Assembly: GCA_902729315.2 (NCBI GenBank)
Contig: LR746269.1
Coordinates: 4,694,501-4,758,500 of the forward strand
Direction: 5' to 3'
Length of the DNA stretch: 64,000 nucleotides
Origin: Spirodela intermedia
Lineage: Eukaryota > Streptophyta > Magnoliopsida > Alismatales > Araceae
This document shows, piece by piece, positions 22,545 to 48,919 of this stretch. The translations under genes were made by a program, and so were the position numbers. The notes under the pieces were generated by a model, which saw only the letters and a list, made by a program, of their open reading frames with translations, searched no databases and had not been told where the DNA came from. The first letter of the stretch is position 1. Each line of letters begins with the position of its first letter.

Positions 22545-23780
22545 AAACAAATTATAGAGGCCCTTGGGAATAAGAGAGAAGAGGGACAGCTACCTAGTCA
22601 GCCCATAGAAAATCCAGGGAACCGCCCAACAATAGGATTTCAGCAAGGGGAGTCTAGTAATATGAATCTAGGAAAAAACCCACGAAATGAAAATGTTAGG
22701 ACAGTGAATGCATTAAGGAGTGGTAAGATCTTACCTGATCCTTATCCCCAAACATTAGAAGAAAAAGAAAACATGGACAACCCAAAACAAAATCAAATAG
22801 GAGTAGAAGAGGATTTTATAGATTCTACCAAGGAAATTTCGAAAGAGAGGACCACCATTCCATTTCCTAAAGCTCTCGAGCCTAGACAAAGAAAGAAAAA
22901 GGAACACAATGAAGAAATAAAGAAAATTTTACAAGATGTGCAAATTAGTCTTCCTTTACTCACTGCCACTAAACATATTCCTGAATATGCTAGAGTTTTG
23001 AAAGAAATGTGTACACCAAAAAGGGCACCTAGAGTAGAAAAATTATCTGTGCATGCTAGTGCATTATTATTAAATCAATTACCATATAAATTGAGAGATA
23101 CAGGTGCCCCTTTAATTTCGTGTGATATTGGTGGATTCATTTTTCAGAATGCATTACTTAACACCGGTGCTAGTATTAATTTATTACCTGCAAGTATTTG
23201 TGATAAATTTAATATTTCTGATCTTAAACCTTCTACTGTTACCTTAAAATTTGTTGATAGATCCATAAAACATCCTAAAGGTATTTTAGAAAATGTGATA
23301 GTGACAGTTAAAGGGTGTAAATTTCCAGCTGATTTTGTAGTGCTGGAAATGGATTTTAATGGACAGTTTTATGATATGCTAATCATCCTAGGGAGACCAT
23401 TTTTGCATATAGCAAAGATGAATATTGATTTTCCTACAGGTATTGCGAAAATTTCATGTGGAGATCAATCAGTAGAAATTAAAATTTTTGAGGTACCAAA
23501 TGATCTTAAGAAATCACAAGTATATGATTGTCATACCATAGATCTTCTAGATGATTTTGATGATCCAGATGTTATTGATGATTGTGTGCTGGAAGAATTA
23601 GAGGAAATAGAGAATATAAATTTGGGAGAAAAGAAAGAGGAAGATCATCTGAATTTAGAGTTGAAACCTCTTCCCTCTAGTTTAAAATATATGTTTCTGG
23701 AGGAAAATAATTCATTTCCTGTTATTATTGCAGCTGATTTGAGTGATGAACAGGAAGAAGAATTATTAGATGTACTTTGA
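22545..23780 (+). pseudogene. A1 protease region with lost catalytic aspartate
   Basis: Continues in the gag frame after the TAG; the first ATG is 22662. It has an acidic, lysine-rich linker and a retropepsin domain, ending at TGA 23778-23780. The active-site triplet reads N-T-G-A (codon AAC at 23160-23162) where A2 has D-T-G-A, which should abolish proteolysis. The closing TGA stands where related elements have a sense codon; pol continues in the same frame 15 bases on. The enzyme would cleave the gag-pol polyprotein. Confidence 0.8.
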
Positions 23781-26552
23781 AAAAATAAGAAGGCTATGGG
23801 CTGGAAAATGGACGATCTAAGGGGCATTGATATGAGTGTATGCATGCATAGTATATATCTAGAGGAGGGGGCCAGAACTAGCAAGGAACCACAACGAAGA
23901 TTAAATCCTAACATGATGGAAATTGTAAAAAAAGAAATTTTAAAGTGGCTGGCTGCTGATATTATTTATCCTATTTCAGATAGCAAATGGGTTAGTCCTA
24001 CACAAGTAGTGCCAAAAAAATCAGGGATCACGGTTATAAAAAACGAAAATGCGGATGAAATACAAACAAGATTAACTACCGATTGGAGGGTTTGCATTGA
24101 TTATAGAAAATTAAATTCAGTTACTAGAAAAGATCATTTTCCCCTACCATTTACTGATCAAATTCTAGAAAACTTAGTTGGAAAAAACTTTTTTTGTTTT
24201 CTGGATGGATACTCTGGTTATAATCAAATTTATATAAACCCTTTAGATCAAGAAAAAACAACTTTCACTTGTCCATTTGGTACTTTTGCTTTTAAACGCA
24301 TGCCTTTTGGTCTGTGTAATGCTCCAGCCACATTTCAAAGATGTATGCTGTCTATTTTTTCTGATATGATTGGAAAATGCATGGAAATTTTTATGGACGA
24401 TTTTTCTATTTTTGGTGAATCATTTGATGAATGCTTAAATCATTTACAACATGTACTTGAAAAATGTATAGAGAAAAAATTAGTTTTGAGTTGGGAGAAA
24501 TCACATTTTATGGTTAAAGAGGGAGTTGTGTTGGGTCATATTGTGAGTAAAAGGGGTTTAGAGGTGGATAGAGCAAAAATTGATATTATATCTAAAATGA
24601 AACCTCCAAATTCAGTAAAACAGATTAGATCTTTCTTGGGTCATGCAGGTTATTACAAAAAATTTATTCAAGATTTTTCGAAGATTTCTAAACCTCTCAC
24701 CATGTTATTATCTAAAGATGTGCCTTTTAATTTTGATGAGAAATGTTTTGAGTCTTTTTCCGAAATAAAAAGATTACTCACTGAGGCACCCATTTTACAA
24801 GCTCTTGATTGGTCCCTTCCCTTTGAAATAATGTGTGATGCATCGAATTATGCAGTGGGGGCCGTTCTAGGACAAACAAAAGAGTCAAAACCCATAGTAA
24901 TTTCATATGCTAGTAAAACTATATCCGATGCTCAATTAAATTATACCACGACTGAAAAAGAGTTGTTAGGTGTAGTATTTTCGTTAGAAAGGTTTAGATC
25001 ATATATTTTGGGAGCTAAAATTATTATTTATACTGATCATGCAGCATTAAAATATCTATTAAATAAGAAAGGTGCAAAGCCACGTTTATTAAGATGGATT
25101 TTATTGTTGCAGGAATTTGACTTAGAAATAAAAGATAAAAAAGGTTTCGAGAATGCTGTTGTTGACCATCTTTCTAGATTAAGTGACACAGGAATAAATG
25201 CAGCACCTTTACAAGACGCATTTCCAGATGAACAATTGATGGCAGCTCAACATCAACCATCACCATGGTATGCATATATTGTTAATTTTCTGGTTTCTGG
25301 AAAAATTTCAGAACAGTGGGATAAGAATAGAAAACATCATTTCTTTTCTAAGATTAGAAATTATTTTTGGCATGGTCCTGATTTATATTACTTGGGCAAT
25401 GATCAAATTTTAAGGAGATGTGTTCCTGAAGAAGAATACCATAGCATTATTAACATGTGCCATTCATCTAACTGTGGAGGACACTTCTCTGGACGAAAAA
25501 CAGCTGCAAAAAATTTTCAGTGTGGTTTTTATTGGCCTACAATCATTAGAGATTCTATAGAATTTAGTAGAACATGTATTTCATGCCAATCTATAGGTAA
25601 CATGAGTAAGAAAGATGAAATGCCCATGAGTAACATGTTAGTAGTCGAAATTTTTGATGTATGGAGAATAGATTTCATGGGTCCCTTCCTATTAGCTGAA
25701 AAATATGAATATATTTTGCTTGCTGTTGATTATGTGTCGAAGTGGGTGGAAGCTATTCCTACTAGAACTAATGATCATAAAATCGTGATGAAATTTGTGC
25801 AGGAAAATATTTTTTCGAGATTTGGATGTCCTAGAGTGATTATTAGTGATGGAGGAACACATTTTACAAATAAAAATTTTAGAGAACTGTTGAAAAAGAA
25901 TGGAGTACACCATAGAGTAGCCACTCCATATCATCCCCAAACAAATGGGCAAGCTAAAGTAGCAAATAGGGAAATTCAGAGAATTTTGAGAAAAATAGTT
26001 AGACCAGATAGGAAAGATTGGCCCACGAAATTACAAGATGCATTATGGGCTTATAGAACAGCTTATAAAAATCCCATAGGTATGTCCCCATTTCGTCTCA
26101 TTTTTGGAAAGCCATGTCATCTTCTTGTGGAAATAGAGCATAAAGCATTATGGGCTATAAAAAATTTATGTATGGATGAAAAATCAGCTGGTGGGCATAG
26201 AATTTTTCAGCTACATGAACTAGAGGAGTTGAGGAATGAAGCTTATGAAAATCATAGAATATATAAAGAAAAAACTAAAACTTTTCATGATAAATACATT
26301 AGCAGAAAAAAATTTGTTGGACAAAAAGTGTGGTTATATGATTCTAGGCTGAAATTATTCCCAAGAAAATTAAAATCAAAATGGAAAGGGCCTTATGTGG
26401 TGGAAGAGACATATGATCATGGGGCTGTAATGATTAAAGATCCTAAAAGTGATCATAACTTTAAGGTAAATGGACAGCGGCTTAAACATTACATAGAACA
26501 TGAACGCCTTGCAGAAAAAGAAATTTTATTATTAAAAGAAATTCAAGAGTAA
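23781..26552 (+). pseudogene. A1 pol: reverse transcriptase, RNase H and integrase
   Basis: One open frame of 918 codons from ATG 23796. Reverse transcriptase has [16 protein letters not shown] and the catalytic FMDDFSIFG (Asp201/202). RNase H has [12 protein letters not shown] (Asp348), TTEKELL (Glu387/389) and IYTDHAAL (Asp414). Integrase has a zinc-binding region CHSSNCGGH...CISC, Asp626 in RIDFMGP and Asp685 in ISDGGTHF. The third catalytic residue, expected exactly 35 residues after Asp685, is Lys721 (AAA at 25956-25958) where A2 has Glu. So integrase should be dead although no stop interrupts the frame. The sequence pattern places it in the Athila lineage. Confidence 0.88.
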
Positions 26553-28147
26553 GATCAAGGAGTCCAGCTGGAGACATTAAATTCAGCGCTGCATGGGAGG
26601 CAACTCATGGTTTTTATTTCATTTTGTTTGATTTTTTTTAAGCTCTGTTTTTCTTAGAATTTTGCAGTACTTGTTTCTGTATTTGTTTTTTCGAAAAAGT
26701 GCAGGAGGAGGCGTGTAAGACGAAGTGGAAAATTAAAAACGAGGTTGAGGTGATGTCTTTCGGAGCTTTATCATTTATGACAACATTTTAAATGCTAAAC
26801 TTTGCATATATGCATGCTTCACTTGAAAATTATATTTTCTGTATATTCTGTTTCGATTTTTCTGTGTCATTGAGGACAATGTCATTTTTAAGTTGGGAGG
26901 TGAAGTATTCATTATTAATTTATGTTGTAGGACGATTAAGAACATGTGTTTGCATTTTATTCAACTTAGAACAGCAACTAAAAAAATAAAAAAAAAGATC
27001 GCCGAATTCGGAAAAACTGCAACATCTATTTTCTGGTTTTCTGTCAGGAACAACAGACTGTCAAAAATAGCAGACGAAAAAATAACCCAAAATTTGAAAT
27101 TATAGAGACCCTTTTCTCACATTTCAATCCCCTAGACATATATTACTGAAATTCAAAATTACAGCTATAAAGAAGATAGTTTTGATTTATTTTTGACAAA
27201 TTTATTGCTACTAAAATAGAACTGAAAACAGAAAACAGAACTGTCAGAACTATCTAATTTACAAATTTCTTACATCATATTGCATGCATGAAAAATTAAA
27301 TCAATTAGATTGATTGATACCAAAAGATACTAGGAAGATTATTATTGAGTCAAAAGAATGATCTAGTAGCATGAAATGCTGGAATACTCCTTGGATACAT
27401 GATAGATAACATGGATTTGATTTTACAGATTTTCACTTCATGATCTTGATGGATAGTATTTACTTGATGTGAAAATTTGATTGATCATTTGAGTTTAATG
27501 GAGATTTTTGCACCCTGATCTATAGGACTTGTGAGGAGAAATCACTTATTTCGAAAAAAAAAAGAGAGAGCAATGTGAAAAATCTAGAAACGAAGAGTAC
27601 ACATGGAGGGTGTGAGACATTATTCTCATTGTCGAAAATCGTGTATAGAAAAACACTTACTGCAAAATAAGTGGATAAACTGAAAGCCCTGAAAATGAAG
27701 AGTACACATAGAGGGTGTGAGACACCATTCTTATTGTCGAAATTTATCTATAGGAAAAGCTACTTATCCACTATATATAAAGAAAGAAGAAATATAGTGA
27801 AAACTTCAAAAATCAAGCCATAGAAAAAGGAAAATGTAGGATCAATATTATTCTTGGATGAGTATTGATAATTGGAACATCTTATAAATATATCTATGAG
27901 TGAAGAAGTGATAAAGATGTGAATAGAAGAAGTGAAGTCTAGATTGTTATTCCAAGGAGTGTTTAAACATTTAAGTGCTTGACATCATTCTTAAATACTT
28001 GATATAAGAATCCAAAGTGTCTAAAGGTGCATCATTTCTAATTGTATTTTTTTTCTTTCTGTATTGAAATATGATGTTTGAGATTTGTAAATTTTTATTT
28101 TCGTAATTCCATTGCTAAGGGACTAGCAATGATTTAAGTTGGGGGTG
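26553..28147 (+). other. A1 3' region and polypurine tract
   Basis: No convincing gene. It has a second G-rich motif (TTGAGGACAATG...TTTAAGTTGGGAGG, 26868-26902), a two-copy tandem repeat of about 105 bases (27592-27800, each with GAAGAGTACACAT-GAGGGTGTGAGACA) and the polypurine tract TTAAGTTGGGGGTG directly before the LTR. Confidence 0.7.
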
Positions 28148-29746
28148 TGATAAGTCTTCATTATCATGAGTTAATAATTAGTAAATAATATAGTTTTAGC
28201 CTTAACTCGTGATAAATAGACTTATATTTGTGTTAAAGTGTGAAAAGTGGTTTTCAGTTGATTAATGTGATTTTTTGGGTAATTATGTGATTTTATATGA
28301 ATTTATATGATTTTTATAATCTTACTTTTGAGATAAATGAAGAAAAAGAAATAAAACTAAAATATTGCAAAATGGGGGGACCCGCCGGCCAGCCGGGCCC
28401 GCAAGCAGGTCGGAAACTCAGTCGGGGAGTAGCCGCGAGCAGGGGCTCGAGTGGCTTGGACTGATAGGGGCTCGTGTGTGCCACTCCCCTTCCACGTCAC
28501 CGGTGGCCAGCCGGCTGTGGGGCAAGGAGTGGTCGTACACGCAGGAGAAGGAACTTTGCTTAGAAATGTAACATTACTATATATTCGCCCGAAAAATCAG
28601 TGCACAACCGATGTGGGACTAAACCCACGTGACACCTTCCTTAGAAGGGGTGGACAATCGGCGCGGGTTCGAATCCTCCCAGAGTCAAAATTCATATATT
28701 TTTATCTGATTATCGTGACTTTTCTACAGATCGTCGATGAAGGATTAAGCAACGAGAATCACTGGATCATCGGCGAAAATCTCGTCAATGCGATTCGCGA
28801 AGCATTGCTACTAAAATTGTTGAACGATTCGAGTAAATCATCTCCGATTGATCGTCGGGAAGAAGACGATCCACCGGGAGACAAGTCGCCACCTTCTGAG
28901 AGCGTACCAGATGCGACGAAGAGCCTCCTCTTGCTGCGCGGATCTGAGAATGAAGCTCTCTGACATGCGCCCCACCTCCATCCAACTCCTTTCCGTCGGG
29001 TGACAGCCACCAGAGAGCCGCAAAGTCGCCATTTTTTCGCTCCGCCGGGTGACAGCCACCAAAGACGACTCGATGACCCATTTCATTAATCTCTAGACTT
29101 CGCGAGAAGATCTAGAGATTGTCCACGTCATCTTTGTCCAAGAAGAGCCTTCGACACCGTGGACACTGCGTGACGATCCTCCCGAACGCTCAGGATTCCG
29201 GTGCATCGCCGACGCATCGCCGTCACGACGTTAGAACTCTATTTTCCTGCTTTCAACTTAACTTCCATTTCATTTAGTGATAATTTGTTGATTTTAAATT
29301 TACCAAAATATACTTTGTTCTATTACGATTCTTCCGGCTTTTACAGATCTTAATTTGATTAATTAAATCGTCTATAATCGCTTACGTAAGAATCGCCAGG
29401 CAGAACTCTATTTTCACCCGATTCGCGTTCGCTGGGCGCTGACGTCATCCTGGCGTCCGCACCCTTATTTCCTTTTTTTTGTGAATTTAAAATATATTTC
29501 GTTTTCATTTCTTAGTATAAAACTCATAGAAAATAGTATTTTTTGAGGAAAATTCTGAATAATTACCAGATATTATATTACATCCCTATGATCGACCTGG
29601 AAAATTACCGCTATTTTTGGAAGTTTTATGGAATTATAATTGATATATTTATTCAGAAATACTTCTAAATATTCGAAAATTCGTATTTTCTAATTTTATA
29701 AATTTTATATTTGCGTGATTTAATATACAACGACTGAGTCACGTCA
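28148..29746 (+). repeat. Family A LTR, right end of A1, chimeric a1/a2
   Basis: Starts TGATAAGTC and ends CACGTCA. Its first part is subtype a1 (ACTAAAATATTGCAAAATGG). Its last part is subtype a2 (TTTGTTGATTTTAAATTTACC), like the LTR at 54119-55755. It also lacks about 30 bases (GATAAAAGGATCGCGAATCC region). It is best read as a product of LTR-LTR recombination. Confidence 0.82.
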
Positions 29747-29777
29747 ATAGGTAATGTATTTTTAGGGTCTAAGAATG

Positions 29778-29778
<1 letters not shown>

Positions 29779-29822
<44 letters not shown>

Positions 29823-32200
29823 AAGAAGAAGAAGAAGAAATTTGATTGAGTGATAAAAGTTTGACCTCATTCCGAGGTTACATAAGTGGGATCTCATTCG
29901 CACAAGGGGCGAGGATGACATGAAGAATGAAAGACCTCTTTTGAAGAGGGGATGTGATGATACTGGAGATAGACTCCAAGGCGTTCATCATATTTGAGGA
30001 AGGTGATTGATTTGCATTGGGTTGAACTTTGAGTTCATGAAAGTTGGAAGATCTGCTCAACAGGAGTAGGACGAGAGCTCCATGTTGTGCGCCATGCAAT
30101 GTTCCTGCAAGACAAGAGTTTGCTGCAGTAAGTGGTTCTAAGAGATAAATAAATTGATATAAAGTGGTGAGAAAAGAGTGATTAGGGCAGTGAGGAGGAT
30201 AGAACTATGCTGAAGCATGACAATAAGCCCAAATATGAACTTGCCTTGCTAGTGTTGCACGCGCCTAATCCCTCTGGCCAAGATCTTGTTAGTATCATCA
30301 GTTGCCGTACTTCCTCTAAGTAGGTAAGGGACCTTTCACCCCACGAGGAATGACTTGGTCTCTGGTTCTAACTCTTTTCTTTTCTCTTATTCTCTCTCTC
30401 TTCTTTCTCTCTCCTTGAGGGCCTCTTCTTTTACCCTCCACTAATGCCCATTATTTGGTGTACATTAGGCTAGTGATTAAGGGAAGGGAAAAAGGTTGCC
30501 CCTTTTTTTTTTTTTTTTTTTTTTGTTTTTTGGTTTTAGGGCCCTTTCCCTCACCCTCCACTAATTGTCTATGATGGGCTAGTGATTCCGGGAAAAGAAG
30601 TAGGCTGTCTTTTTTTTTTTTTTTTTTTTTTTTTCCTAGAGAGAGAAAGGGAGGGAGAAAGAAATAGAGAATCGAGAGAGAGAGAGAGGAGAGAGGGTCA
30701 ATCCTATGGATATAGATCTTTACCTTCTCATGGGTTCAAGCTGGCTGATGGTACTAATAAGATCTTGAGAGAGGTGCTAGGTTGCCGATTCACAACTAGT
30801 TTGGCAGGTCTGATGTGCTATAGACCTATAGTTCAAAAGTGGGCCGATGCCAACATATGCTGATAGTTCTATGTCCTCACTACTTGAGCATGATAGATAG
30901 TAGATGTGATGTGATTATGAGGAGAGTAATGATTGGAAGTAATGTACCCGAGTGGATTACGATGTGCCTTGTTGTCCGTGTTGTGCTGTATCTCCATTGT
31001 GGTCTTCAGCGGCCAATAGTAACCACCCCTGATCTCCTCCAAGCAATACGCCACTGTCGTGGAGAGGCCGGTAGTGGAGTGCGGTGTATGCGTAAAGAGG
31101 GTATGCCGAGTCGCTCAAGTCTATGAGCACCTCGGGCTTCCAGGGGCATGTCCTGCCAAAAAGAGAAGACTGTCCTCCGACGCGATCTGACTCCATGCGC
31201 AGCAAGGGCGTCAGCTGTCTGATTCCCTTCTCGGAATTGATGCGTAATAGTTGTGATGCGTCCTCGACATCGCATGATGTCTGCCCAGATATTCTTGAGC
31301 CTCCAATGAGGACAAGAGTCTGCACGTAACATGTCCACTAACACTTTGGAATCAGATTCTAAGACAATGTTAGTAATATTTTGCTCCTCACAAAGAAACA
31401 AACCATCCCGTATTGCCATAGCCTCTGCCACAATATTAGTTTGTATATTATAAAAGTTCGAAAAGGCAAAGAGAATGCATCCTATACTATCGCGTAAGAT
31501 ACCGCCTCCTCCAGATGATCCTGGGTTGCCTTGAGATGCTCCGTCGACGTTGAGTTTCCACTGTCCAGCCCTCGGTGGTGTCCATCTAACAGATCGGACA
31601 GTAGTCCAGGTCTGTGTAGGTATGATATGGAGTCCCCAAAGCCCAAAAGCCTCACAAACAGAACGCGAGCGTTTCGTTTTATTTGGCACTAAGGAATGAG
31701 TACTCCGAAGCCATTGTGTTACGTGCCTCATAATCTCTGTGGCACGCATCACTTGGCCTGCATATCGAGATGAGTTACGTCCCTTCCATATTTCCCATAA
31801 CATATATGCTATGGAGATACGGATGAAAGGACAAACCTTGACACTCGTCGGTGAGTCAAAGACTCTCCTAAAGACCTCTAGTGGTGGTCTCGTAGGTCTG
31901 TACGAGAGCATTGGAAGCCAATTCGCTAGAAGTTGACGCCAACACTCGACAGCGATATCACTATGGAAAAATAAATGTTCCATACTTTCGTCTGTCGTGA
32001 TGGAGCAACAATGACATTTCCTTTCCACCTCCTGATCGGTGACAATCACTCGATCGTCGGTGGGTAGTCCTCGGTGCATGAACTTCCACAGGAAGAACGA
32101 AACACGAGGTGTGATGGCCGGATGCCATATGAGATTTCCCCAAAATGTCTTTGGGGAGCGGTTTCTAAAGTGCTCCCAAGAGGAGCTACAAGAGAAACTG
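29779..32200 (-). mobile_element. 5'-truncated LINE (RNase H-bearing non-LTR element)
   Basis: Minus-strand 3' part of a plant L1-type element ending in a long poly(A), seen as 43 T at 29779-29821. Its coding end lies at about 31006-32160. It interrupts family D near the protease/pol boundary: D sequence resumes on each side (32205 upward, and 29747-29778). No target-site duplication was found. Two more T tracts (30503-30524 and 30610-30634) sit at the ends of a duplicated stretch in its 3' region, so the 3' part may itself be composite. Confidence 0.7.
31006..32160 (-). pseudogene. LINE ORF2 C-terminus: zf-RVT and RNase H
   Basis: About 380 codons, open to the end. The start is a zf-RVT region (W-K-F-M-H-R-G-L-P, then CHCC and MEHLFF). 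An RNase H domain of the plant LINE type follows: Asp179 in VDGASQGNPG, Glu219 in AEAMAI, Asp243 in ESDSK and Asp290 in QTADALA (numbered from the ATG at 32079). All four RNase H residues are intact, but endonuclease and reverse transcriptase are missing. It would degrade RNA in RNA-DNA hybrids during retrotransposition. Confidence 0.85.
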
Positions 32201-32204
32201 CCAT

Positions 32205-33740
32205 CTATGGTAATGAAGAGGGTAAAGGTTTTAGGTCTAAATTTGGGACAATGAAAGGTTCTAGAGGTTTCAATAGTTTTCTTTTGTCTATTTCACAAAT
32301 TTCAAAATAATTTTCTCCTAACTCATCATCTTCATCAAAGACATCACAAATGTCAACTTCTTCATGGCTAACACTAAGATATTTCATTAATTTCGAAATA
32401 TTCAGTTCGACTTTCTCCTTTCCTACCCTTAATATTACTGTCTTTTTCTTAATCCGTTATGGCTTTAGTGGTGATAAAAAAGGGTCTCCTTAAAATTATG
32501 GGTGCTCTACTCTAATTATCAGGCATTTTCATATCAGCCACAATAAAATCAATAGGAAATGCACACTGTTCTATCTTCGTTATGACATCCTCCAACACAC
32601 CATATGATTACTTAATAGATCCATCCACAAGTTGTAATTCTAAAAGGACTGATTCTAGATTTCCAATTTTAAATTTGTCATATAATACTTTTGGCATGAG
32701 ATTGACACTAGCACCAAAATCTAATAAAGATCTAGAAAAATATGTTTCTCCAATATCACAAGAAATTAAGGGTGTACCTAAATCCTTTTCTTTTTTCTAG
32801 AATTTGATTTAATATGATAGAACTAACACTTTCAAACAATTTGACTCTCTTGGGTTTCCAATTGGGAGTATAAAGTTCCTTAACATATTTTGAGAATGAA
32901 GGAATATCTTTTGTTTCTTCTTCTAAGGAAATGACTATTGTTGTCTCTTTAAAGGTTTCTAGGAGTTTACTATTTTAGATGGGAGGTTTGGTAAATTTTA
33001 AAGCTTTTGGAAAAATAATAGGCGGTTGATATTTTTCGAAGGTTGGTTCTCTTTCTTTCAACTCTACTTTTTCCTCTTCTTTCTCTAAGGTTTTCTCTTG
33101 CTCTCCCTTTTCATTCTTGTCATAAGGGTCAACTAAACATTTCCCATTTCTTAATTTAGTTATGGCATGAATACATTCATGATTTTCAAAAGGAAAAGAT
33201 GCATGAGATTTTATAGAAATAATATTACAAAGATTAATTGAGGGCTGAGTTGAAAATCAACCTATACCATAGTCCACTTCTCTCCCTTTACCTTTCATAT
33301 TTTCAACATTAGAGTTGACTTGATTCAACCTCTCCACATCAGCCTTGAGCTGCTCCACATCTCTCACTATGTCTTGCACTACTTCTTTTGTTTCACACTA
33401 TTCTTTTTGAATTTCCTACAAAATCTGTGTAAGGAGTTCATTAGAGTTACCTTGAGGCATGTTTTGTGGTTGAGATCATTGGAAGTAAGGTCTTGGCTAA
33501 AATTAGGGTCGAGATTCCTTATTGAAGTTTGCATTGCCTCGCCCATTTCATGAATTGTGAGGTGGTGCATGTTTCATCACATTCACTTCACCGGTGTCGA
33601 TGTATTCCCCATCTACATGTCCTTTGCTAAAACACATAAAGCATGGAGTATTATGAACATGTGAAATAGTAGGATTAGATAATAAATTTAACATCATGTT
33701 AGTCAACTTTCCTAAATGCCTATTAGTCATATCCCTTTTA
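32205..33740 (-). pseudogene. Family D gag C-terminus and protease remnant
   Basis: Minus-strand decayed coding sequence of the D element. Around 33550-33735 is a cysteine-bearing gag tail (CFMCFSKGH); 33000-33500 is a charged linker. The protease region (about 32480-32800) reads GTPLISCDIG and LLDFGASVNLMP, with D-F-G-A in place of D-T-G-A. It ends at about 32205 with LKPLPSSL, which normally precedes pol. Many stops break it. Most of gag's capsid part is missing, because only about 330 bases of D remain between here and the primer site. Confidence 0.75.
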
Positions 33741-33992
33741 ATTTCAGGTTCAATACCTTTTGAAGATCTCTTTTGATGAATTTTTATAGTAAAAGAAAGG
33801 TTATAAAAAAAAATAAAAAAAAATACTAACTATCATTGAATCATCGCGGATCCAACTACACAATTAGTTGCAGGGGGTCAAGGGGGAAGCTGCCCCTTGT
33901 GAGGCGTGGGACAGCTCCCCGCTGCTCAAAAATCTCATGAAATTGGATATGTAAAAAGTGATATTTTTCTTGAAAAGTTCTCAATCGATGAC

Positions 33993-35467
33993 TAACGTGA
34001 CTTAGTCATTGTATATTAAATCACACAAATCTTAAATTTATAAAACTGGAAAATACGAATTTTCAGACATTTAGAAGTATTTTTGAACAAATATATCAAT
34101 TATAATTCAATAAACTTCCAAACATAGCGATAATTTTCCAAGTCAATCATAGGGATATAATATAATATCTTATAATTATTTAGAATTTTTCTCAAAGAAT
34201 AATATTTTATATAAATTTTATACTAAGAAATGAAAAAGAAATATATTTAAAATTCACGGAAAAAGGAAATAAGGGTGCGGACGTCAGGATGACGTCAGCA
34301 CCTAGCTAACGTGAATCAGGCAGAAATAGAGTTCCGCCTGGCAATTCTTATGTAAGCGATTACAAATGATTTAATTGATCAAATTAAGATCTGTAAAAGT
34401 CGGAAGAATCGTAATGAAATGAAGTATATCTTAGTAAATTTAAAATCAACAAATTATCACTAAATGAAGTGTAAAGTAAGTTGAAAGTAAGAAAATAGAG
34501 TTCTGGCATCGCGGCGGCGATGCGTCGGGGATGCACTGGAATTCTGAGTATTCGGGAGGATAGTCGTGTAGTATTCACGGCCTCGAAGGCTCTCCTTGGA
34601 CAAGGACGATGTGGGCAATCTCTTGATCTCCTTAGGAAGTCTAGAGATCAATGAAATGGGTCGTCGAATCGTCTCCGACAGTTGTTACCCGACGGAGTAG
34701 AAAAATGACGACTTTGCGGCTCTCCGACAGCTGTCACCTGACAGAGAGGAGCTGGATGGAGGTGGGGCACATGTCAGGAAGCTTCATCCTCAAGTCTGTG
34801 GAGCAAGAGGAGGCTTTTCATTGCATCCGGTATGCTCTCACGAGGTGGCGACTCATCTCCCAGCAGATCGTCCTCTTCCCGACGACGGCTTGTTTGTCGA
34901 TCAATCAAAGATGCTTTACTCGATGGATTCGTGATCCTTTTATCGCAAATCGTTCAATAATTTTAGTAACAATACTCCGCGAATCGCATTGACGAGATTT
35001 TCACCGATGATCCAGTAATTCTGGTTGCTTAATCCTTCACTGGTGATTTTTAAAGGCAAGTCCCTTTCTCGCGCGTGCACGACCACTCCTTGCCTCACAA
35101 CCGGCTGGCCACCGGTGACGTGGAAGGGGAGTGGCGCACACGTGCCCCTATCGGTCCAAGCCACTCAAGCCCCTGCTTGTGGCTACTCCCCGACTGTGCT
35201 TCTGACCTGCTTGCGGGCCCGGCTGGCCGGTGGGTCCCCTATTTTGTCTTATTTTTATTTTTATTTCTTTTTCTTCATTTATCTCAAAAGTAAGATTGTA
35301 AAAATCATATAAAATCATTTAAAATCACATAATTACCTAAAAATTCACGTTAATCAACTGAACACCACTTTTCACAGTTTAATACAAATATAAGTCTATT
35401 TATCATGAGTTAAGGCTAAAACTATATTATTTACTAATTATTAACTCATGATAATGAAGACTTATCA
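33993..35467 (-). repeat. Family A solo LTR in the D element (subtype a2)
   Basis: Starts TAACGTGACTTAG and ends GACTTATCA, flanked by ATGAC at 33988-33992 and 35468-35472. It is about 170 bases shorter than the other copies because the stretch with the B-box-like sequence and the TATA region is deleted near 35050. Confidence 0.88.
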
Positions 35468-35550
35468 ATGACTTAGAAAATTATTCGCTGAAGAAAGAAA
35501 AAATGACAAAAAAATAAAGAAAAAATTATATTCTCTCAATGACACCTAGT

Positions 35551-35568
35551 TTGCTAGCAACAATGCCA
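35551..35568 (-). other. Decayed primer binding site of the D element
   Basis: The reverse complement, TGGCATTGTTGCTAGCAA, resembles the tRNA-Asp site TGGCGCCGTTGCCGGGGA and lies 33 bases inside the D LTR end. Confidence 0.5.
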
Positions 35569-35601
35569 ATTTGATAAACTCAAATTGGAGGTTAAATATA
35601 T

Positions 35602-36702
35602 TGTCATGATTCAACCAAGTTCATGTAAATAATATTTATGAAATCTCACATTTTTATTTACGATAAGTAAGGATTGATGTTCAAAGAGTATGGGTAATGA
35701 GAGTACAAATTCTGCTTATTTTATTTCTTATATAGATATATATGCATGAGATTGTGAAGGACAAAATTAAATGTAAAAAGGTGAAGACAAGAGTTATGAA
35801 AAGCGTGACAAAAGAGAGAGAATGAATCTGACGCAATGGAATGATAAAATAAATAATAAAACTATTTCAAATTGCAAGTTAATCTATCTATGGAGAGGAT
35901 TACAAGAACGTCCCAAATCTAGATCTTGCACAAACCTCGTTGTGCCCTAATCCTAGGCCGAGTGATGCTTGATCCATGACGATCTTGATGCACTCTAGGT
36001 AGTCGCTTCTCCACGATGATCTTGGGCATGAGAATGCTATTGACCAGGTCTTGATTTCTCTCCTATTTTGTTTGGCTAGCCACTACTAGAGAGAGCCAAA
36101 AAGCATCCTCCAAGAGGGAGGCGTGATGCCTAATCCTCTCGAAAATTAGGCCCCTCTAATAGATGGTTATGATTAATAACCAAACTCCCTTGGTGGATGG
36201 CCCAGATCATTCTATGAGGGCAGCATTCTAATTCTTCTCTTAATCTCATCTTAAGGTGCCTTAAGATGTGCAGCCTAGATCTCATCTCTTTATAACTCTT
36301 TCAAGTCCAAATGGGTTAGGCCAAGATGACACCCTCTCTTAGTCTCATAAATATATTACGCCAACCCTCTCCATAAAACTTGGGCTTTTCATTAGGCTGA
36401 AGGCTTGGGCTTCTTCTTTTACTTCCAACTCATAATAAAAGCTCACCTAAGTTCTTGCAATCAAATAATTATCAAGAAAATGTGAGAGAATCACTACTTG
36501 ACTTCATAAAAGTCAAGTGGGGTTAGTCTCATAATATAAATAAAATAAGTAAAATAATATACATTAGGACTTAAATGATGAAATATTATGAATGTTGTAA
36601 TGAGTCGGTAACACATATATAATTATATTATCTACCCACTAATTAACATTTATATATAAGATATTAATGTATAGATGTAACTACTAATTTGTAATTATCA
36701 CA
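35602..36702 (-). repeat. Family D 5' LTR (about 1.1 kb)
   Basis: In element sense it starts TGTGATAATTAC and ends ATCATGACA. It aligns with the opposite-strand copy at 38700-39846, which fixes both ends. Given its orientation and the primer site next to it, it is the 5' LTR of the D element whose coding parts are 32205-33740 and 55756-63240. Confidence 0.7.
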
Positions 36703-37499
36703 AGGACACTCTAAATTTAGATCTTGCACAAACCTTATTTTGTTCCAATCCTAGGCCGAGTGATGCTTAATCCATGATGATCTTGATGCACCTTAGGTAA
36801 TCTCTTCTCTACGATGATTTTGAGCATGAGAATGTCTTTGATTAGGCTTTGATTTTTCTCTTATTTTTTTCAACTAGCTACTACTAGAGAGAGAACCAAA
36901 AATAACCCTCTAAGAGGAAGGCAAGATGTCTTAATCCTCTAGAGAATTAGGCCCCTCCAATAGATGGTTATAATTAATAACCGACTCTCTTGGTAGACAG
37001 CCCAAATCATTTCATGAGGGTAGTGCTTTAATCCTTCTCTTAATCTCATCTTAAGGCGGCCTAAGATGAGCAGCTTAGATCTCATCTCTTGATAGCCCTT
37101 TTAAGTCCAAATAGGCTTGGCCAAGGTGATGCCCTCTCTTGAGCCCATAAATATATTAGGCTGGCCCTCTTCATAAGACTTAAACTTTTTATTGGACTAA
37201 AGGCTTAGGCTTCTTCCATTACTTCCAACTCATAATAAGAACTCACTAAGTCTTTACAATCAAATAATTATCAAAACAATATGAGATAATCACCACTTGA
37301 CTTCATAAAAGTCAAATAGGATTAGTCTCATAATGTAAATAAAATAAGTAAAATAATATGCATTAAGTCTTAAATGATAAAATATTATGAATATCATAAT
37401 GAGTTGGTAACACATGTATAATTCTATTATCTATTCATTAATTCACATTATATATAATATATTAATGCATAGATGCAACTACGAATTTATAATTTTCAG
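36703..37499 (-). repeat. Truncated second family D LTR in tandem
   Basis: Repeats 35907-36702 in the same orientation (begins AGGACACTCTAAATTTAG). It lacks the first 300 bases on its left side and joins the complete LTR directly. Confidence 0.75.
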
Positions 37500-37829
37500 T
37501 CTTCCCTCTCCATCTCTCATGAAATATCTCTTTCTCTCTCCCTCTCTCTAGATTGATCTCCCTCTCTTTCTTCTCTCTCTCTCTCTCCCTTCCTTCTATT
37601 ATCTACTTTCTTTATTCTTCTCATCTCTCACTTCTATTTTATTATTTTTACTAAATAGTAATAAAATATTAAAATCTCTTTATATAAAAATTAAATTAAT
37701 TTTTAAGGATGAATTAATTAATATTTATGTGTTTGACTTGAGACTTACATCTATACTAATAGCTTATTAAGTCTTAATTATAAATATTATAGATAATGGG
37801 CATTCAAATACAATGATAAGTGTACATCA
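37500..37829 (+). repeat. 3' fragment of a family C LTR
   Basis: The CT-rich tract and the following TTATTTTTACTAAATA-AATAAAATATT to GTGTACATCA match the last 330 bases of the family C LTRs (10250-10580). Only the 3' end is present. Confidence 0.75.
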
Positions 37830-38699
37830 ATTTTAAATCATAAATTTAGTAGAATTATTATGTATCTATAAGGATGAAAGACAAAAAGTATGTCTTTAAT
37901 TCATTCTCATCACTTATTAATAATTAAGCAACTGAGTAATAGAAAAAGAACAAAGATGATCTTTCTAATCGTCAAGTCATTGTAGGCAAATTTCCTTTTC
38001 TTTATTGACAATAATAAATCATTATTCAGCTACACCTTCAATCCATATCACTAGACTCATGTTGGCATGTGGAATCTTGGAAGATAATGTGGAAACATAG
38101 GAACAAAGGAGAAGAGTAAAATTCATTGATTGCTTGTCCTACTACTAGTGAAGCAATAGAATAAACAATTTATAGCTCAATAATACCTAAAAATGATAAA
38201 ATATATTATTCTAAAAAGAAAACAATGTTAGATCTTGTCATGTGTGTCACCTCACATGATTAAATAAGTAATATATTGAAATAAAACACAAGAATAAAAA
38301 ACTCTTAGTAAAATAAAGGAGAAAATACAAAGAAATTGAGTTGCAACTTTGTTGTCATACACAAAGAGATTTGAATGAGAATGTAAACCAAAAACTAGAT
38401 TAAAAAGAAGCTTAAAAGAGCTAGAATCAAGAGAAGAACCAATTATGAATCTCAAGAAATTGAAAAATAAGGAATTTCACACAAAAGAGAAAATTACTCA
38501 TGCTCCTTCAAGTCATCATAGAGAAGAACAAGCCAACCCCTCTCTTCAAAAGAAGGGAGAAGCTCCGAATAGAAGTAAGAAATCCTCTTGTAATATTTCT
38601 TCCTCTCACTTTTACACATGAATCTAGGTAGTAGTAATTGTAAGTTAACAATGCTACCATGCAGTCCTACTTTAGGTGTCCTACATAAAGTGTGTCATG
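37830..38699. other. Unassigned AT-rich DNA
   Basis: No recognised coding sequence or structure. It may be internal sequence of the element that owned the C LTR fragment. Confidence 0.35.
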
Positions 38700-39846
38700 T
38701 GTGATAATTATAAATTAGTAGTTACATCTATGTATTAATACCTTATATCTAGATGCTAATTAGTGAGTAGAGAATGTAATTATACATGTATTATCAACTG
38801 ATTATGAGATTCATAATGTTTTATTATTTACGTTCTAATATATATTATTTTATTATTTTATTGATATTATGAGACTAACCTCACTTGACTTTTATGAAGT
38901 CAAGTGGTGATTTTCTCATATTTTCTTGATAATTATTTAATTTGAAAAACTTAAGTGAACTCTTATTATGAGTCAGAAGTAATGGAAGAAACCCAAGTTT
39001 TCAGCCCAACAAAAAGCCTAAGTCTTATGGAGAAGACTAGCCTAATATATTTATGAGTCCAAGAGAGGGTGTCATCTTGGTCAAGCCCATTTAGACCTTA
39101 AGTGGCACATGACCTTAGCCTAATCTATCTGGACTGAAAAGGCCTATCAAGAGATGATATTTAGTCCACCCATCTTAGGGTGCCTTAAGACAAGATTAAG
39201 AGGAGGATTAAAGTGTTGCCCTCATGATAGAATCTGGGCCGTCCACCAAGAGAATCGGTTATTAATCATAATTTTTTATTAGAGGATCTTAATTTTCTAG
39301 AGGTTTAAAGCCTCTCACCCCCCTTCTTAGAAGAGCCTTTTTGGCTCTCTCTCTCTAGTAGTGGCTAGTTGAAGGAAAAAAGAAGGAAATCAAGGCTCAG
39401 TCAATGGTATTCTTGTGCCCAAGATCATCGTGAAGAAAAGACTACTTATACTACATCAAGATTATTGTGAATCAAGCACCACTCAGCCTAGGACTAACAT
39501 ATAATGAGGTTTGTACAAGATCAAGATTTGGGGCGTCCTTGTAATCTTCTCCATAGATAGATTATCTCTTAGTTCAACTAGTTTTATTATTTATTCTATC
39601 ATTCTATTATGCTAGATCCATTCTCTCTCCTTTTGCCACACTTTGTATTTCTTTTTATCTTCACCCTTATTAGATTAATTATGCCCTTCACAATCTCAAG
39701 TATATCTATATATATAAGAAATAAAATAAGTAAAATTCTTACTCTCATTATCTACGTTCCTTGAGAATCGACCTTTACTTATCCTAAATTGAAGAGTGAG
39801 ATTTTATAAATATTATTTGCATAAACTTGGTTGTATCACGATGACA
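38700..39846 (+). repeat. Family D LTR, opposite orientation
   Basis: Starts TGTGATAATTATAAATTAG and ends CACGATGACA (1147 bp). After it follows TATTTAACCTC, as after the other D LTR, but no primer site can be recognised further on. Confidence 0.75.
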
Positions 39847-40165
39847 TATTTAACCTCTAAATCGGGTTCATCCATGTGCTAACCACAAAAAGCACCATTG
39901 TATCTTGTTTCTTCATTACAAATGTGACAAATGCCTATTCATGTACAACATGTTGTTCTTCACTCAAAAGTCATGTGTAGTGTTGTTGGTTATACTTTGC
40001 AACAAGCTCTTTGCTCTTCATTTGTGGACAATGCAGCTTGGATCTCATCCAACATCATCTCATGCACTATTGTGATGGCTGCAAAGCAAGCTTCATACTC
40101 CTTATGATTGAGGATGTTGATCACTACATTGACTTGTCCTAGCTGGTTGCAACAATTAAGGTGAT
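39847..40165 (-). other. Unidentified coding-like fragment next to the inversion breakpoint
   Basis: On the minus strand 39993-40165 is open for about 55 codons (includes NHKEYEACFAAI and EMMLDEIQAALS) before a stop. I do not recognise it. It may be gag-like sequence of another element. Confidence 0.3.
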
Positions 40166-41809
40166 TGACGTGACTCAGTCGTTGTATATTAAATCACGCA
40201 AATATAAAATTTATAAAACTAGAAAATATGAATTTTTGGATATTTAGAAGTATTTCTGAATAAATATATCAATTATAATTCAATAAAACTTCCAAAAATA
40301 GCGGTAATTTTCCAGGTCGATCACAGGGATGTAATATAATATCTGGTAATTATTCAGATTTTTTCTCAATGAATACTATTTTCTATGAATTTTATACTAG
40401 GAAATGAAAAGGAAATATATTTAAAATTCACAAAAAAGGGAAATAAGGGTGCAGACGTTAGGATGACGTCATCGCCTGGCAAACGCGAATCGGGTGGAAA
40501 TAAAGTTCCACCCGATGATTCTTACGTAAGCGATTACAGACGATTTAATTAATCAAATTAAGATCTGTAAAAGCCGAAAGAATCGTAATTGAATAAAGTA
40601 TCTTTTGGTAAATTAAAATCACAAAAATTATCACTAAATGAAGCATAAAGTAAGTTGAAAGCAAGAAAACAAAGTTCCGCCGTTGTGATGGCGATGCGTC
40701 GGCGATGCACTGGAATCCTAAGCGTTCGAGAGGATCGTCGTGCAGTGTCCACGGCCTCGAAGGCTCTCCTTGGACAAGGACGACGTGGGCAATCTCTAGA
40801 TCTCCTTGTGAAGTCTAGAAATCAATAAAATGGGTCGTCGAATCGTCTTCGACGACTGTCACTCGGCGGAGCGGAAAAACGGTGACTTTGTGGCTCTCCG
40901 GTGGCTGTCACCCGACGGAAAGGAGTTGGATGGAGGTGGGGCGCATGTCAGGGAGCTTCATCCTCAGGTCCGCGCAGCAAGAGGAGGCTCTTCATCGCAT
41001 CTGGTACGCTCTCAGGAGGTGGCGACTCATCTCCCGGCGGGTCATCCTCTTCCCAACGACGGCTTGTTCGTCGATCAATCGGAGATGATTTACTCGATGG
41101 ATTCATGATCCTTTTATCGCGAATCGTTCAGCAATTTTAGTAGCGATGCTCCGCGAATCACGTTGACGAGATTTTCGCCGATGATCCAGCGATTCTGGTT
41201 GCTTAATCCTTCACCGGCGATCTGCAGGAAAGTCGCGATAATCAGATAAAAATATATGAATTTTGACTCTAGGAGGATTCGAACCCGCGCCGGTTGTCCG
41301 CCCCTTCTGAGGAAGGTGTGATGCGGGTTTAGTCCCACATCAGTTGTGCGCCAATTTTTTAGGCGAATATATAGTAATGTTAGCTTTCTAAACAAAGTCC
41401 CTTCTCTCGCGTGTACGACCACTCCTTGCCCCACAACCGGTTGGCCACCGGTGACGTGGAAGGGGAGTGGCGCACACGTGCCCCTATCGGTCCAAGCTAA
41501 GCCGCTCGAGCCCCTGCTCACGGCTACTCCCCGACTGAGCTTCCGACCTGCTTGCAGGCCCGGCTGGCCGGCGGGTCCCCTCTATTTTGCAATATTTTAG
41601 TTTTATTTCTTTTTCTTCATTTATCTCAAAAGTAAGACTGTAAAAATCATATAAATTTGTATAAAATCACATAATTACCCAAAAAATCACATTAATCAAC
41701 TGAAAACCACTTTTCACACTTTAACACAAATATAAGTCTATTTATCACGAGTTAAGGCTAAAACTATATTATTTACTAATTATTAACTCATGATAATGAA
41801 GATTTATCA
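40166..41809 (-). repeat. Family A LTR, left end of A2 (subtype a1)
   Basis: Starts TGACGTGACTCAG and ends ATTTATCA. Its private variants match the LTR at 19381-21031, not its present neighbour at 48925-50561. The flank GTGAT is the complement of ATCAC left of A1. Confidence 0.9.
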
Positions 41810-43404
41810 CACCCCCCAACTTAAATCATTGCTAGTCCCTTAGCAATGGAATTACGAAAATAAAAATTTACAAATCTCAAACATCATATTTCAATACAGA
41901 AAGAAAAAAATACAATTAGAAATGATGCACCTTTAGACACTTTGGATTCTTATATCAAGTATTTAAGAATGATGTCAAGCACTTAAATGTTTAAACACTC
42001 CTTGGAATAACAATCTAGACTTCACTTCTTCTATTCACATCTTTATCACTTCTTCACTCATAGATATATTTATAAGATGTTCCAATTATCAATACTCATC
42101 CAAGAATAATATTGATCCTACATTTTCCTTTTTCTATGGCTTGATTTTTGAAGTTTTCACTATATTTCTTCTTTCTTTATATATAGTGGATAAGTAGCTT
42201 TTCCTGTAGATAAATTTCGACAATAAGAATGATGTCTCACACCCTCCATGTGTACTCTTCATTTTCAGGGCTTTCACTTTATCCACTTATTTTGCAGCAA
42301 GTGTTTTTCTATACACGATTTTCGACAATGAGAATAATGTCTCACACCCTCCATGTGTACTCTTCGTTTCTAGATTTTTCACATTGCTCTCTCTTTTTTT
42401 TTTCGAAATAAGTGATTTCTCCTCACAAGTCCTATAGATCAGGGTGCAAAAATCTCCATTAAACTCAAATGATCAATCAAATTTTCACATCAAGTAAATA
42501 TTATCCATCAAGATCATGAAGTGAAAATCTGTAAAATCAAATCCGTGTTATCTATCATGTATCCAAGGAGTATTCCAACATTTCATGCTACTAGATCATT
42601 CTTTTGACTCAATAATAATCTTCCTAGTATCTTTTGGTATCAATCAATCTAATTGATTTAATTTTTCATGCATGCAATATGATGTAAGAAATTTGTAAAT
42701 TAGATAGTTCTGACAGTTCTGTTTTCTGTTTTCAGTTCTATTTTAGCAGCAATAAATTTGTCAAAAATAAATCAAAACTATCTTCTTTATAGCTGTAATT
42801 TCGAATTTCAGTAATATATGTCTAGGGGATTGAAATGTGAGAAAAGGGTCTCTATAATTTCAAATTTTGGGTTATTTTTTCGTCTGCTGTTTTTGACAGT
42901 CTGTTGTTCCTGACAGAAAACCAGAAAATAGATGTTGCAGTTTTTCCGAATTCGGCGATCTTTTTTTTTATTTTTTTAGTTGCTGTTCTAAGTTGAATAA
43001 AATGCAAACACATGTTCTTAATCGTCCTACAGCATAAATTAATAATGAATACTTCACCCCCCAACTTAAAAATGACATTGTCCTCAATGACATAGAAAAA
43101 TCGAAACAGAATATACAGAAAATATAATTTTCAAGTGAAGCATGCATATATGCAAAGTTTAGCATTAAAAATGTTTTCATAAATGATAAAGCTCCGAAAG
43201 ACATCACCTCAACCTCGTTTTTAATTTTCCACTTCGTCTTACACGCCTCCTCCTGCACTTTTTCGAAAAAACAAATACAGAAACAAGTACTGCAAAATTC
43301 TAAGAAAAACAGAGCTTAAAAAAAATCAAACAAAATGAAATAAAAACCATGGGTTGCCTCCCATGCAGCGCTGAATTTAATGTCTCCAGCTAGACTCCTT
43401 GATC
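41810..43404 (-). other. A2 3' region with polypurine tract
   Basis: Mirror copy of 26553-28147. The polypurine tract (CACCCCCCAACTTAAA on the plus strand) abuts the LTR. It holds the 105-base tandem repeat at about 42190-42400 and the second G-rich motif at 43056-43092. No gene. Confidence 0.7.
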
Positions 43405-46161
43405 TTACTCTTGAATTTCTTTTAATAATAAAATTTCTTTTTCTGCAAGGTGTTCATGTTCTATGTAATGTTTAAGCCGCTGTCCATTTACCTTAAACTT
43501 ATGATCACTTTTAGGATCTTTAATCATTACAGCCCCATGATCATATGTCTCTTCCACCACATAAGGCCCTTTTCATTTTGATTTTAATTTTCTTGGGAAT
43601 AATTTCAGTCTAGAATCATATAACCACACTTTTTGTCCAATAAATTTTTTTCTGCTAATGTATTTATCATGAAAAGTTTTAGTTTTTTCTTTATATATTC
43701 TATGATTTTCATAAGCTTCATTCCTCAACTCCTCTAGTTCATGTAGCTGAAAAATTCTATGCCCACCAGCTGATTTTTCATCCATACATAAATTTTTTAT
43801 AGCCCATAATGCTTTATGCTCTATTTCCACAAGAAGATGACATGGCTTTCCAAAAATGAGACGAAATGGGGACATACCTATGGGATTTTTATAAGCTGTT
43901 CTATAAGCCCATAATGCATCTTGTAATTTCGTGGGCCAATCTTTCCTATCTGGTCTAACTATTTTTCTCAAAATTCTCTGAATTTCCCTATTTGCTACTT
44001 CAGCTTGCCCATTTGTTTGGGGATGATATGGAGTGGCTACTCTATGATGTACTCCATTCTTTTTCAACAGTTCTCTGAAATTTTTATTTGTAAAATGTGT
44101 TCCTCCATCACTAATAATCACTCTAGGACATCCAAATCTCGAAAAAATATTTTCCTGCACAAATTTCATCACGATTTTATGATCATTAGTTCTAGTAGGA
44201 ATAGCTTCCACCCACTTCGACACATAATCAACAGCAAGCAAAATATATTCATATTTTTCAGCTAATGGGAAGGGACCCATGAAATCTATTCCCCATACAT
44301 CAAAAATTTCGACTACTAACATGTTACTCATGGGCATTTCATCTTTTTTACTCATGTTACCTATAGATTGGCATGAAATACATGTTCTACTAAATTCTAT
44401 AGAATCTCTAATGATTGTAGGCCAATAAAAACCACACTGAAAAATTTTTGCAGCTGTTTTTCGTCTAGAGAAGTGTCCTCCACAGTTAGATGAATGGCAC
44501 ATGTTAATAATGCTATGGTATTCTTCTTCAGGAACACATCTCCTTAAAATTTGATCATTGCCCAAGTAATATAAATCAGGACCATGCCAAAAATAATTTC
44601 TAATCTTAGAAAAGAAATGATGTTTTCTGTTCTTATCCCACTGTTCTGGAATTTTTCCAGAAACCAGAAAATTAACAATATGTGCATATCATGGTGATGG
44701 TTGATGTTGAGCTGCCATCAATTGTTCATCTGGAAATGCGTCTTGTAAAGGTGCTGCATTTATTCCTGTGTCACTTAATCTAGAAAGATGGTCAACAACA
44801 GCATTCTCGAAACCTTTTTTATCTTTTATTTCTAAGTCAAATTCCTGCAACAATAAAATCCATCTTAATAAATGTGGCTTTGCATCTTTCTTATTTAACA
44901 GATATTTTAATGCTGCATGATCAGTATAAATAATAATTTTAGCTCCCAAAATATATGATCTAAACCTTTTTAACGAAAATACTACACCTAACAACTCTTT
45001 TTCAGTCGTGGTATAATTTAATTGAGCATCGGATATAGTTTTACTAGCATATGAAATTACTATGGGTTTTGACTCTTTTGTTTGTCCTAGAACGGCCCCC
45101 ACTGCATAATTCGATGCATCACACATTATTTCAAAGGGAAGGGACCAATCAAGAGCTTGTAAAATGGGTGCCTCAGTGAGTAATCTTTTTATTTCGGAAA
45201 AAGACTCAAAATATTTCTCATCAAAATTAAAAGGCACATCTTTAGATAATAACATGGTGAGAGGTTTAGAAATCTTCGAAAAATCTTGAATAAATTTTTT
45301 GTAATAACCTACATGACCCAAGAAAGATCTAATCTGTTTTACTGAATTTGGAGGTTTCATTTTAGATATAATATCAATTTTTGCTCTATCCACCTCTAAA
45401 CCCCTTTTACTCACAATATGACCCAACACAACTCCCTCTTTAACCATAAAATGTGATTTCTCCCAACTCAAAACTAATTTTTTCTCTATACATTTTTCAA
45501 GTACATGTTGTAAATGATTTAAGCATTCATCAAATGATTCACCAAAAATAGAAAAATCGTCCATAAAAATTTCCATGCATTTTCCAATCATATCAGAAAA
45601 AATAGACAGCATACATCTTTGAAATGTGGCTGGAGCATTACACAGACCAAAAGGCATGCGTTTAAAAGCAAAAGTACCAAATGGACAAGTGAAAGTTGTT
45701 TTTTCTTGATCTAAAGGGTTTATATAAATTTGATTATAACCAGAGTATCCATCCAGAAAACAAAAAAAGTTTTTTCCAACTAAGTTTTCTAGAATTTGAT
45801 CAGTAAATGGTAGGGGAAAATGATCTTTTCTAGTAACTGAATTTAATTTTCTATAATCAATGCAAACCCTCCAATCGGTAGTTAATCTTGTTTGTATTTC
45901 ATCCGCATTTTCGTTTTTTATAACCGTGATCCCTGATTTTTTTGGCACTACTTGTGTAGGACTAACCCATTTGCTATCTGAAATAGGATAAATAATATCA
46001 GCAGCCAGCCACTTTAAAATTTCTTTTTTTACAATTTCCATCATGTTAGGATTTAATCTTCGTTGTGGTTCCCTGCTAGTTCTGGCCCCCTCCTCTAGAT
46101 ATATACTATGCATGCATACACTCATATCAATGCCCCTTAGATCGTCCATTTTCCAGCCCAT
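43405..46161 (-). pseudogene. A2 pol, two tryptophan-to-stop changes
   Basis: Same 918-codon pol as A1, with TGA at 44689-44691 (between RNase H and integrase) and TGA at 43573-43575 (near the integrase C-terminus). Both replace tryptophan codons kept in A1. The RT motif FMDDFSIFG, RNase H residues and the integrase D, D and E (GAA at 43999-44001) are otherwise intact. Its integrase thus keeps the glutamate that A1 has lost, while A1 keeps the two tryptophans. Confidence 0.88.
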
Positions 46162-48901: not shown

Positions 48902-48919
48902 TCCCCGGCAACGGCACCA
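48902..48919 (-). other. tRNA-Asp primer binding site of A2
   Basis: The reverse complement is TGGTGCCGTTGCCGGGGA, one change from the A1 site, 5 bases inside the LTR. Confidence 0.85.

Follow-up and report, generated by a model that had tools for sequence, protein, structure and literature searches.

Crossed target duplications point to an inversion between opposed Ty3/gypsy retrotransposons in Spirodela intermedia

A 64,000-nucleotide stretch of the Spirodela intermedia genome (contig LR746269.1, positions 4,694,501 to 4,758,500; hereafter, the window) appears to carry the product of a small inversion. Homologous recombination between two opposed copies of one Ty3/gypsy retrotransposon family, here called family A, most probably inverted the DNA between them, a reading given a probability of roughly 0.84. 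The copies involved are A1 on the left, in plus orientation, and a block of two elements, A2 and A3, on the right, in minus orientation. The DNA between them, here called the core, extends from 29747 to 40165 (window coordinates throughout). Three lines of evidence support a flip that ends in the A elements: the exchange of 5-bp target duplications between the two sides, the kinship of the long terminal repeats (LTRs), and the paralogues of an interrupted third element, family D. A first-pass annotation of the same DNA had proposed an inversion by recombination between inverted A copies, and all three lines bear this out. Comparisons beyond the window drew on a search of the genome (136.5 Mb in 32 contigs, the window being C6:4694501-4758500), in which the A internal stretch has at least 38 copies outside the window.

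Exchanged target duplications

Read directly, A1 (19381-29746) is flanked by ATCAC ahead and ATAGG behind. On the plus strand, the block at 40166-55755 has GTGAT ahead and CCTAT behind; read in the direction of the element, its 3' end is followed by ATCAC and its 5' end is preceded by ATAGG. So oriented, the 5' flanks are ATCAC for A1, GATAC for A2, and ATAGG for A3, and the 3' flanks are ATAGG for A1 and ATCAC for A2. The crosswise reverse complementarity of these flanks, noted in the first-pass annotation, was assessed against every alternative in the window by comparing seven 5' with six 3' LTR ends, four solo LTRs included, which gives 42 pairings. Full 5/5 matches occur in five: three solo LTRs (solo15, solo34, and solo58) each match themselves, and the other two are the crosswise pairs, ATCAC (A1 5' end with A2 3' end) and ATAGG (A3 5' end with A1 3' end). 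Two further pairings match at 4/5, namely solo55 with itself and the solo55 5' end with the A2 3' end. For solo34, an LTR with an altered terminal TG, the 3' boundary was placed by hand. Random 5-mers from the window match at a rate of 0.0017, and by sampling from the window both crosswise pairs would arise by chance with a probability of approximately 3e-6. Both target duplications are thus exchanged in full, the partner end on the right being that of A3, the host of the nested A2.

Outside the window, flanks are equal in three of five full-length control copies (C8, C16, and C19), differ in one (C13), and are unreadable in one (C9). Among four solo-like LTRs, they match in three, two of which lie at twin places on C13, and do not match in C16b.

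Two features of C13 deserve mention in their own right. Its full-length A copy (C13:4198767-4209151; L067 and L068), with flanks GACAG/GCTCC and 93.1% LTR identity, is another candidate for exchange between copies. In the same contig, three A-family matches appear twice, always 83,639 bases apart (approximately 4150468-4162564 and 4234107-4246204). Among them are two solo LTRs, both flanked by CTCGT and 98.7% identical. This repeat is either a segmental duplication or a piece duplicated in the assembly.

Kinship of the long terminal repeats

The LTR alignment that had been suggested as a check was run on 24 LTRs, nine from the window and 15 from elsewhere. In the resulting tree, the A1 5' LTR at 19381 groups not with its present partner at 28148 but with the LTR at 40166, its sister with a support of 100 and an identity of 95.7%. 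Present partners are 90.2% (19381/28148) and 92.7% (40166/48925) identical. For comparison, the LTR identities of the equal-flank controls are 99.0%, 98.4%, and 97.1%, and that of the unequal-flank C13 copy is 93.1%. A genome search with the first 1.2 kb of LTR 19381 returned LTR 40166 as the best other match among the 40 candidates scored (95%, the next being 94%). Furthermore, 11 substitution states are private to these two LTRs and occur in none of 20 others, a count that omits the solo LTRs 33989 and 55883 as divergent or truncated. Of the 69 polarised differences between 19381 and 40166, 55 are C>T or G>A, an excess that is expected of methylated cytosines.

Private LTR variants had also been put forward as a sign that the elements exchanged partners, and this holds for one pair. 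Three motifs are confined to 19381 and 40166, the remaining 22 LTRs lacking all of them, and each is a small piece of evidence. The 5-bp insertion after CGAGCGGC occurs in just these two LTRs, at a site that is itself variable: both C13 LTRs have 6 bp there, six LTRs from C8, C9, and C16 have 4 bp, and 14 have no insertion. The motif AAAAGATAC is common to both and comes down to one substitution, LTR 19381 carrying there an extra 6-bp insertion that is absent from 40166. Likewise, CATCCTAACG is common to both and consists of a single G-to-A change. These variants link 19381 with 40166 and give no support to a second pair.

Such a second pair would consist of 28148 and 54119. LTR 28148 falls in a clade with 54119 and the solo LTR at 58140 (supports of 84 and 91), at identities of 91.6% and 90.2%. 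The pairing is compatible with the data, though not proved, and the LTRs speak for it weakly. When LTR 28148 was tested as a mosaic of 48925 and 54119, the 108 sites divided into 51, 54, and three matching neither, in a patchy arrangement. A control with LTR 48925 was patchy too, and so no breakpoint is claimed in LTR 28148.

Family D across the right junction

The window holds fragments of an older Ty3/gypsy element, family D. Of 29 loci outside the window, 10 were used for comparison (L010-L018 and L024); of those left out, L025 was equal to L024, and the rest had weaker matches at the protein level, most of them where A copies lie. In L010 (on C13) and L012 (on C5), the D parts corresponding to 59774-61807, 57631-58139, and 55760-55884 run on into the core on the opposite window strand. 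L010 proceeds from 55760 to 32211-32905, and L012 from 55758 to 32211-32916. Between the two D sides, both loci have a stretch of approximately 35 bases matching the beginning of the core in reverse, and the long interspersed nuclear element (LINE) that splits the core is missing from both.

When the flanks are joined with the core reversed, L010 aligns over 119 bases without a gap (score 170) and L012 with one 2-base gap (score 150). Leaving the core in its present strand lowers the scores to 133 and 108; the L010 alignment then takes in only a few core bases and continues across a 19-base gap, and that of L012 takes in only four core bases. At the DNA level, D is continuous over the right junction after reversal, and the unbroken right-hand site can be seen in both paralogues; the single continuous pol frame that the first-pass annotation read over this joint is putative. 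Seven of the ten loci have both D sides, in all seven on opposite window strands, with five of these at just 67-75% identity; the remaining three stop short of the core part. The C5 copy is colinear with the core past the solo LTR at 33993-35467 up to 35664. Beyond this point, its next stretch aligns with tandem repeats in the core, with two of them (36137-36596 and 36938-37392) directly and with a third in reverse, and the order there is uncertain. The D paralogues, which are colinear with the locus only once the core is reversed, provide a witness independent of the flanks and the LTR trees and absent from the first-pass annotation.

Two consecutive D-related pol stretches, 60651-61860 and 61989-63203, are 71% alike. 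L010 matches the former at 87% and the latter at 70%, and a second, more divergent relative of D seems to adjoin D there.

Proposed crossover and gene conversion

LTR 19381 pairs with 40166 over its full length, with no switch visible, and the crossover would consequently lie within the interiors, at 21032-28147 on A1 and 41810-48924 on A2. These differ at just 82 of 7114 positions (1.15%), with a longest identical run of 761 bp, and because the differences are few and spread along the length, the crossover is not narrowed further. A1 now combines LTR 19381 with an LTR of another clade (28148), and any change-over in its interior is masked by the alike internal regions. Since the crossover would be inside the elements, the flipped DNA exceeds the core and has to take in the distal portions of both elements as well. 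To the 10,419 bp of the core is added double the stretch that separates the crossover from 29746, which gives about 13.6-27.8 kb. The extent of 10.4 kb first given for the inversion was thus imprecise, and describes the core only.

The internal regions of A1 and A2 were compared with three fetched from copies outside the window, from which either diverges by 2.2-2.6%. The facing LTRs of A1 and A2 differ from each other as much as, or more than, they differ from those of the three other copies. Differences inside and in the LTRs stand at 82:273 for A1-A2, versus 174:234, 164:254, and 181:272 for A1 with C19, C8, and C16 (Fisher p of 1e-8, 1.5e-6, and 4e-7, respectively). At two-state sites among the five copies, A1 and A2 share 37 minority states, against nine that link just one of the two with one other copy. 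These figures hint that conversion between the opposed copies, probably along with the crossover, made the internal regions alike. Alternatively, the LTRs could have been replaced by conversion from elsewhere, or the interiors could derive from a shared source, with later change in the LTRs. The 918-amino-acid pol frame of A1 (23796-26552) is open, though the left-end LTR pair (19381/40166) is 4.3% apart, which would fit an interior that is younger than the LTRs.

The history of the locus may be reconstructed as follows. Element D was the oldest occupant. A3 entered D in minus orientation at CCTAT, as its flanks and the unbroken site in the paralogues show. An A copy inserted into the A3 pol after GATAC, as is visible at one end, and a later deletion may have taken its other end. 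A further A copy, in plus orientation, inserted on the left at ATCAC, a step shown by the flanks and the LTR pairing. A crossover in the opposed internal regions would then have turned over all the intervening DNA and made a hybrid of either copy, one of its flanks having been swapped, as reflected in the flanks, one LTR pair, and the order of D, and gene conversion may have made the internal regions alike. The relative order is fixed for the nested insertions only.

Alternative explanations

Several observations weigh against an inversion. The evidence for it is the sequence of a single assembly, and no crossover point is visible. At 91.6%, the 28148/54119 pair is less alike than LTR 28148 and several outside LTRs (up to 92.7%), and 54119-55755 ranks eighth among the matches of LTR 28148 in the genome search. 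The LTRs look patchy, which makes LTR kinship by itself unsafe evidence. The C13 full-length control also has unequal flanks (GACAG/GCTCC), and unequal flanks therefore do not by themselves imply inversion. Lastly, a genome search with the left flank (18511-19380) found no other match and no empty site, and in a search with 39296-40165 only 39296 to approximately 39889 lay in a dispersed repeat; consequently, no sequence bridges the left junction.

The main doubt concerns the assembly. The plant might have the uninverted order, the wrong sides of the near-identical 10-kb inverted arms having been joined by the assembler or during curation. The arms are 97% identical over 9.5 kb, with identical runs of up to 761 bp. 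The assembly of S. intermedia clone 8410, presumably the one analysed here, is described as 136.6 Mb in 18 pseudomolecules, the largest being Si09 at 13.4 Mb (PMC7645714). It was produced with MaSuRCA from nanopore and Illumina data, reached an N50 of 408 kb prior to being ordered against another clone, and was manually curated (PMC7645714). However, the nanopore data in the same source comprise 307,111 reads no shorter than 10 kb (9.96 Gb, mean approximately 32 kb), enough to span an element (PMC7645714). The arms are, moreover, set apart by the 82 internal differences and by more in the LTRs, and there is no N in the window. An artefact of this kind is judged unlikely.

Another possibility, compatible with the proposed inversion and in effect its stronger form, is that both orders exist, the inversion being polymorphic or recurrent and the segment heterozygous or flipping back and forth. 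Long, similar inverted arms are still in place, which makes reversal mechanically possible, and the internal regions look homogenised, but the one assembly shows no sign of a second order, and the idea is doubtful. The opposed copies could even form an active exchange pair, in which repeated conversion and crossover keep the 7-kb interiors alike, the LTRs drift, the segment still flips, and both orders segregate. This, too, seems improbable. Spirodela is mainly asexual.

An account with no flip at all would trace the crossed flanks to independent exchange or conversion events at the ends of LTRs and treat the D pieces as unrelated opposed fragments. It could draw on the patchiness of LTRs within family A and on the one control in five with unequal flanks, but it needs a chance match of both flank pairs, and D pieces that meet in register at the insertion point once reversed, as in L010 and L012, make it scarcely credible.

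Structure of the locus

Family A shows the features of Ty3/gypsy elements, with TG...CA LTRs, a 5-bp target duplication, and gag followed by reverse transcriptase, RNase H, and integrase. The open reading frames (ORFs) of A1 match the Pfam models Retrotrans_gag and RVT_1, together with RNase H and integrase models. Behind the A1 5' LTR, at 21037, lie the primer-site letters TGGCGCCGTTGCCGGGGA, which may point to tRNA-Asp and to the Athila/Tat lineage. The features of the locus are collected in Table 1.

Table 1. Features of the probably inverted locus in window coordinates
Feature	Position	Strand	Basis or remark
Target duplication ATCAC, 5' of A1	19376..19380	.	Full match only at 3' end of opposed copy
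A1, full-length Ty3/gypsy	19381-29746	+	Separate ORFs
A1 5' LTR	19381..21031	+	95.7% to LTR 40166, 90.2% to present partner 28148
A1 internal region: gag, reverse transcriptase, RNase H, integrase	21032..28147	+	Pfam on separate ORFs
A1 3' LTR	28148..29746	+	Followed by ATAGG, as found before A3 5' end; compatible with, not proved as, pre-flip 3' LTR end of A3 insertion
Target duplication ATAGG, 3' of A1	29747..29751	.	
Core, probably flipped	29747..40165	-	Colinear with the C13 and C5 paralogues of D
Core: D fragment	29747 to ~29783		
Core: LINE	to ~32210		zf-RVT and RVT_3
Core: D	32211-33989		
Core: solo A LTR	33993-35467		
Core: D resumes	35468 to at least 35664		
Core: remainder, repeats	to 40165		
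Target duplication GTGAT (ATCAC in element orientation)	40161..40165	.	
A2 3' LTR; before the flip, probably 3' LTR of the ATCAC insertion	40166..41809	-	LTR tree and flanks
A2 internal region	41810..48924	-	
A2 5' LTR, in A3 pol behind GATAC	48925..50561	-	
A3 residual internal parts, older subfamily	50562..54118	-	Internal gap (51393/52399 versus A1); 3' part gone
A3 5' LTR	54119..55755	-	ATAGG ahead in element orientation
Target duplication CCTAT (ATAGG in element orientation)	55756..55760	.	
D right-hand part	55756..61807	+	Pieces 55756-55884, 57631-58139, 59774-61807; matches to L010 and L012
Solo A LTRs splitting right-hand D	55885-57630 and 58140-59773		Solo LTR flanks

In the right-hand block, A2 is not joined to A3: one A copy is nested in another, probably with a later loss. 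Beside 50561, the A3 pol, which belongs to an older A subfamily (4-8% from A1), stops after GATAC at a site equal to A1 27398, and A2 was therefore inserted into A3. A description as two elements sharing an LTR was rejected, as the LTR at 50561 abuts the A3 pol at GATAC. The far end of the nested copy, with a second GATAC, is absent, and the flank that A3 needs is now on the 3' LTR of A1; the simplest reading would be a deletion running from the 3' part of one nested element to that of the other. A genome search for the lost end, using a 23-base degenerate pattern (LTR end, GATAC, and pol), yielded neither an exact match nor any in the window. At one or two mismatches, there were 85 matches versus 23 for a reversed control, many of them resembling the unbroken pol of relatives.

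One single-mismatch match, at C17:3258593-3258615, resembles a reversed LTR end against GATAC in an A-like pol. A2 entered A3 at an identical five-base sequence, which may reflect chance or a preferred site.

Significance and comparison with known systems

For a single inversion mediated by transposons, the record at this locus is unusually complete: the flanks, one LTR pair, and an interrupted third element agree. This suggests that the flanks of LTR retrotransposons may reveal small inversions from one assembly, without a second genome. In addition, the two LTRs of a present-day element may stem from separate insertions, and dating by LTR divergence can therefore mislead. No paper title on this locus was found in the open-licence literature.

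Published criteria for inversion by ectopic recombination are opposed copies, exchanged target duplications, and hybrid copies (PMC2775673). Here, opposed homologous copies lie at both breakpoints. Among the closest systems are inversions produced by Galileo in Drosophila buzzatii, for example 2z3, which likewise have opposed breakpoint copies and exchanged target duplications. They also have hybrid copies, as A1 and A2 would be, and are attributed to ectopic recombination (PMC2775673). In contrast to the LTR retrotransposons found here, Galileo is a DNA transposon, and 2z3 is a chromosomal inversion for which uninverted chromosomes are known (PMC2775673). The present segment spans tens of kb at most and has a paralogous unbroken site on one side only. 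A likeness in description exists to the Ty-mediated rearrangements of yeast, in which copies of LTR retrotransposons recombine (PMC2775673). Plant LTR retrotransposons offer a further parallel in their nested elements, conversion signals, and LTR divergence that is unsafe as a plain clock (PMC7251063). Its passages on the subject deal with LTR pairs and solo LTRs, and the word inversion does not occur in its text (PMC7251063). The locus is thus a new example of a known process, ordinary in kind and very well documented by its own sequence.

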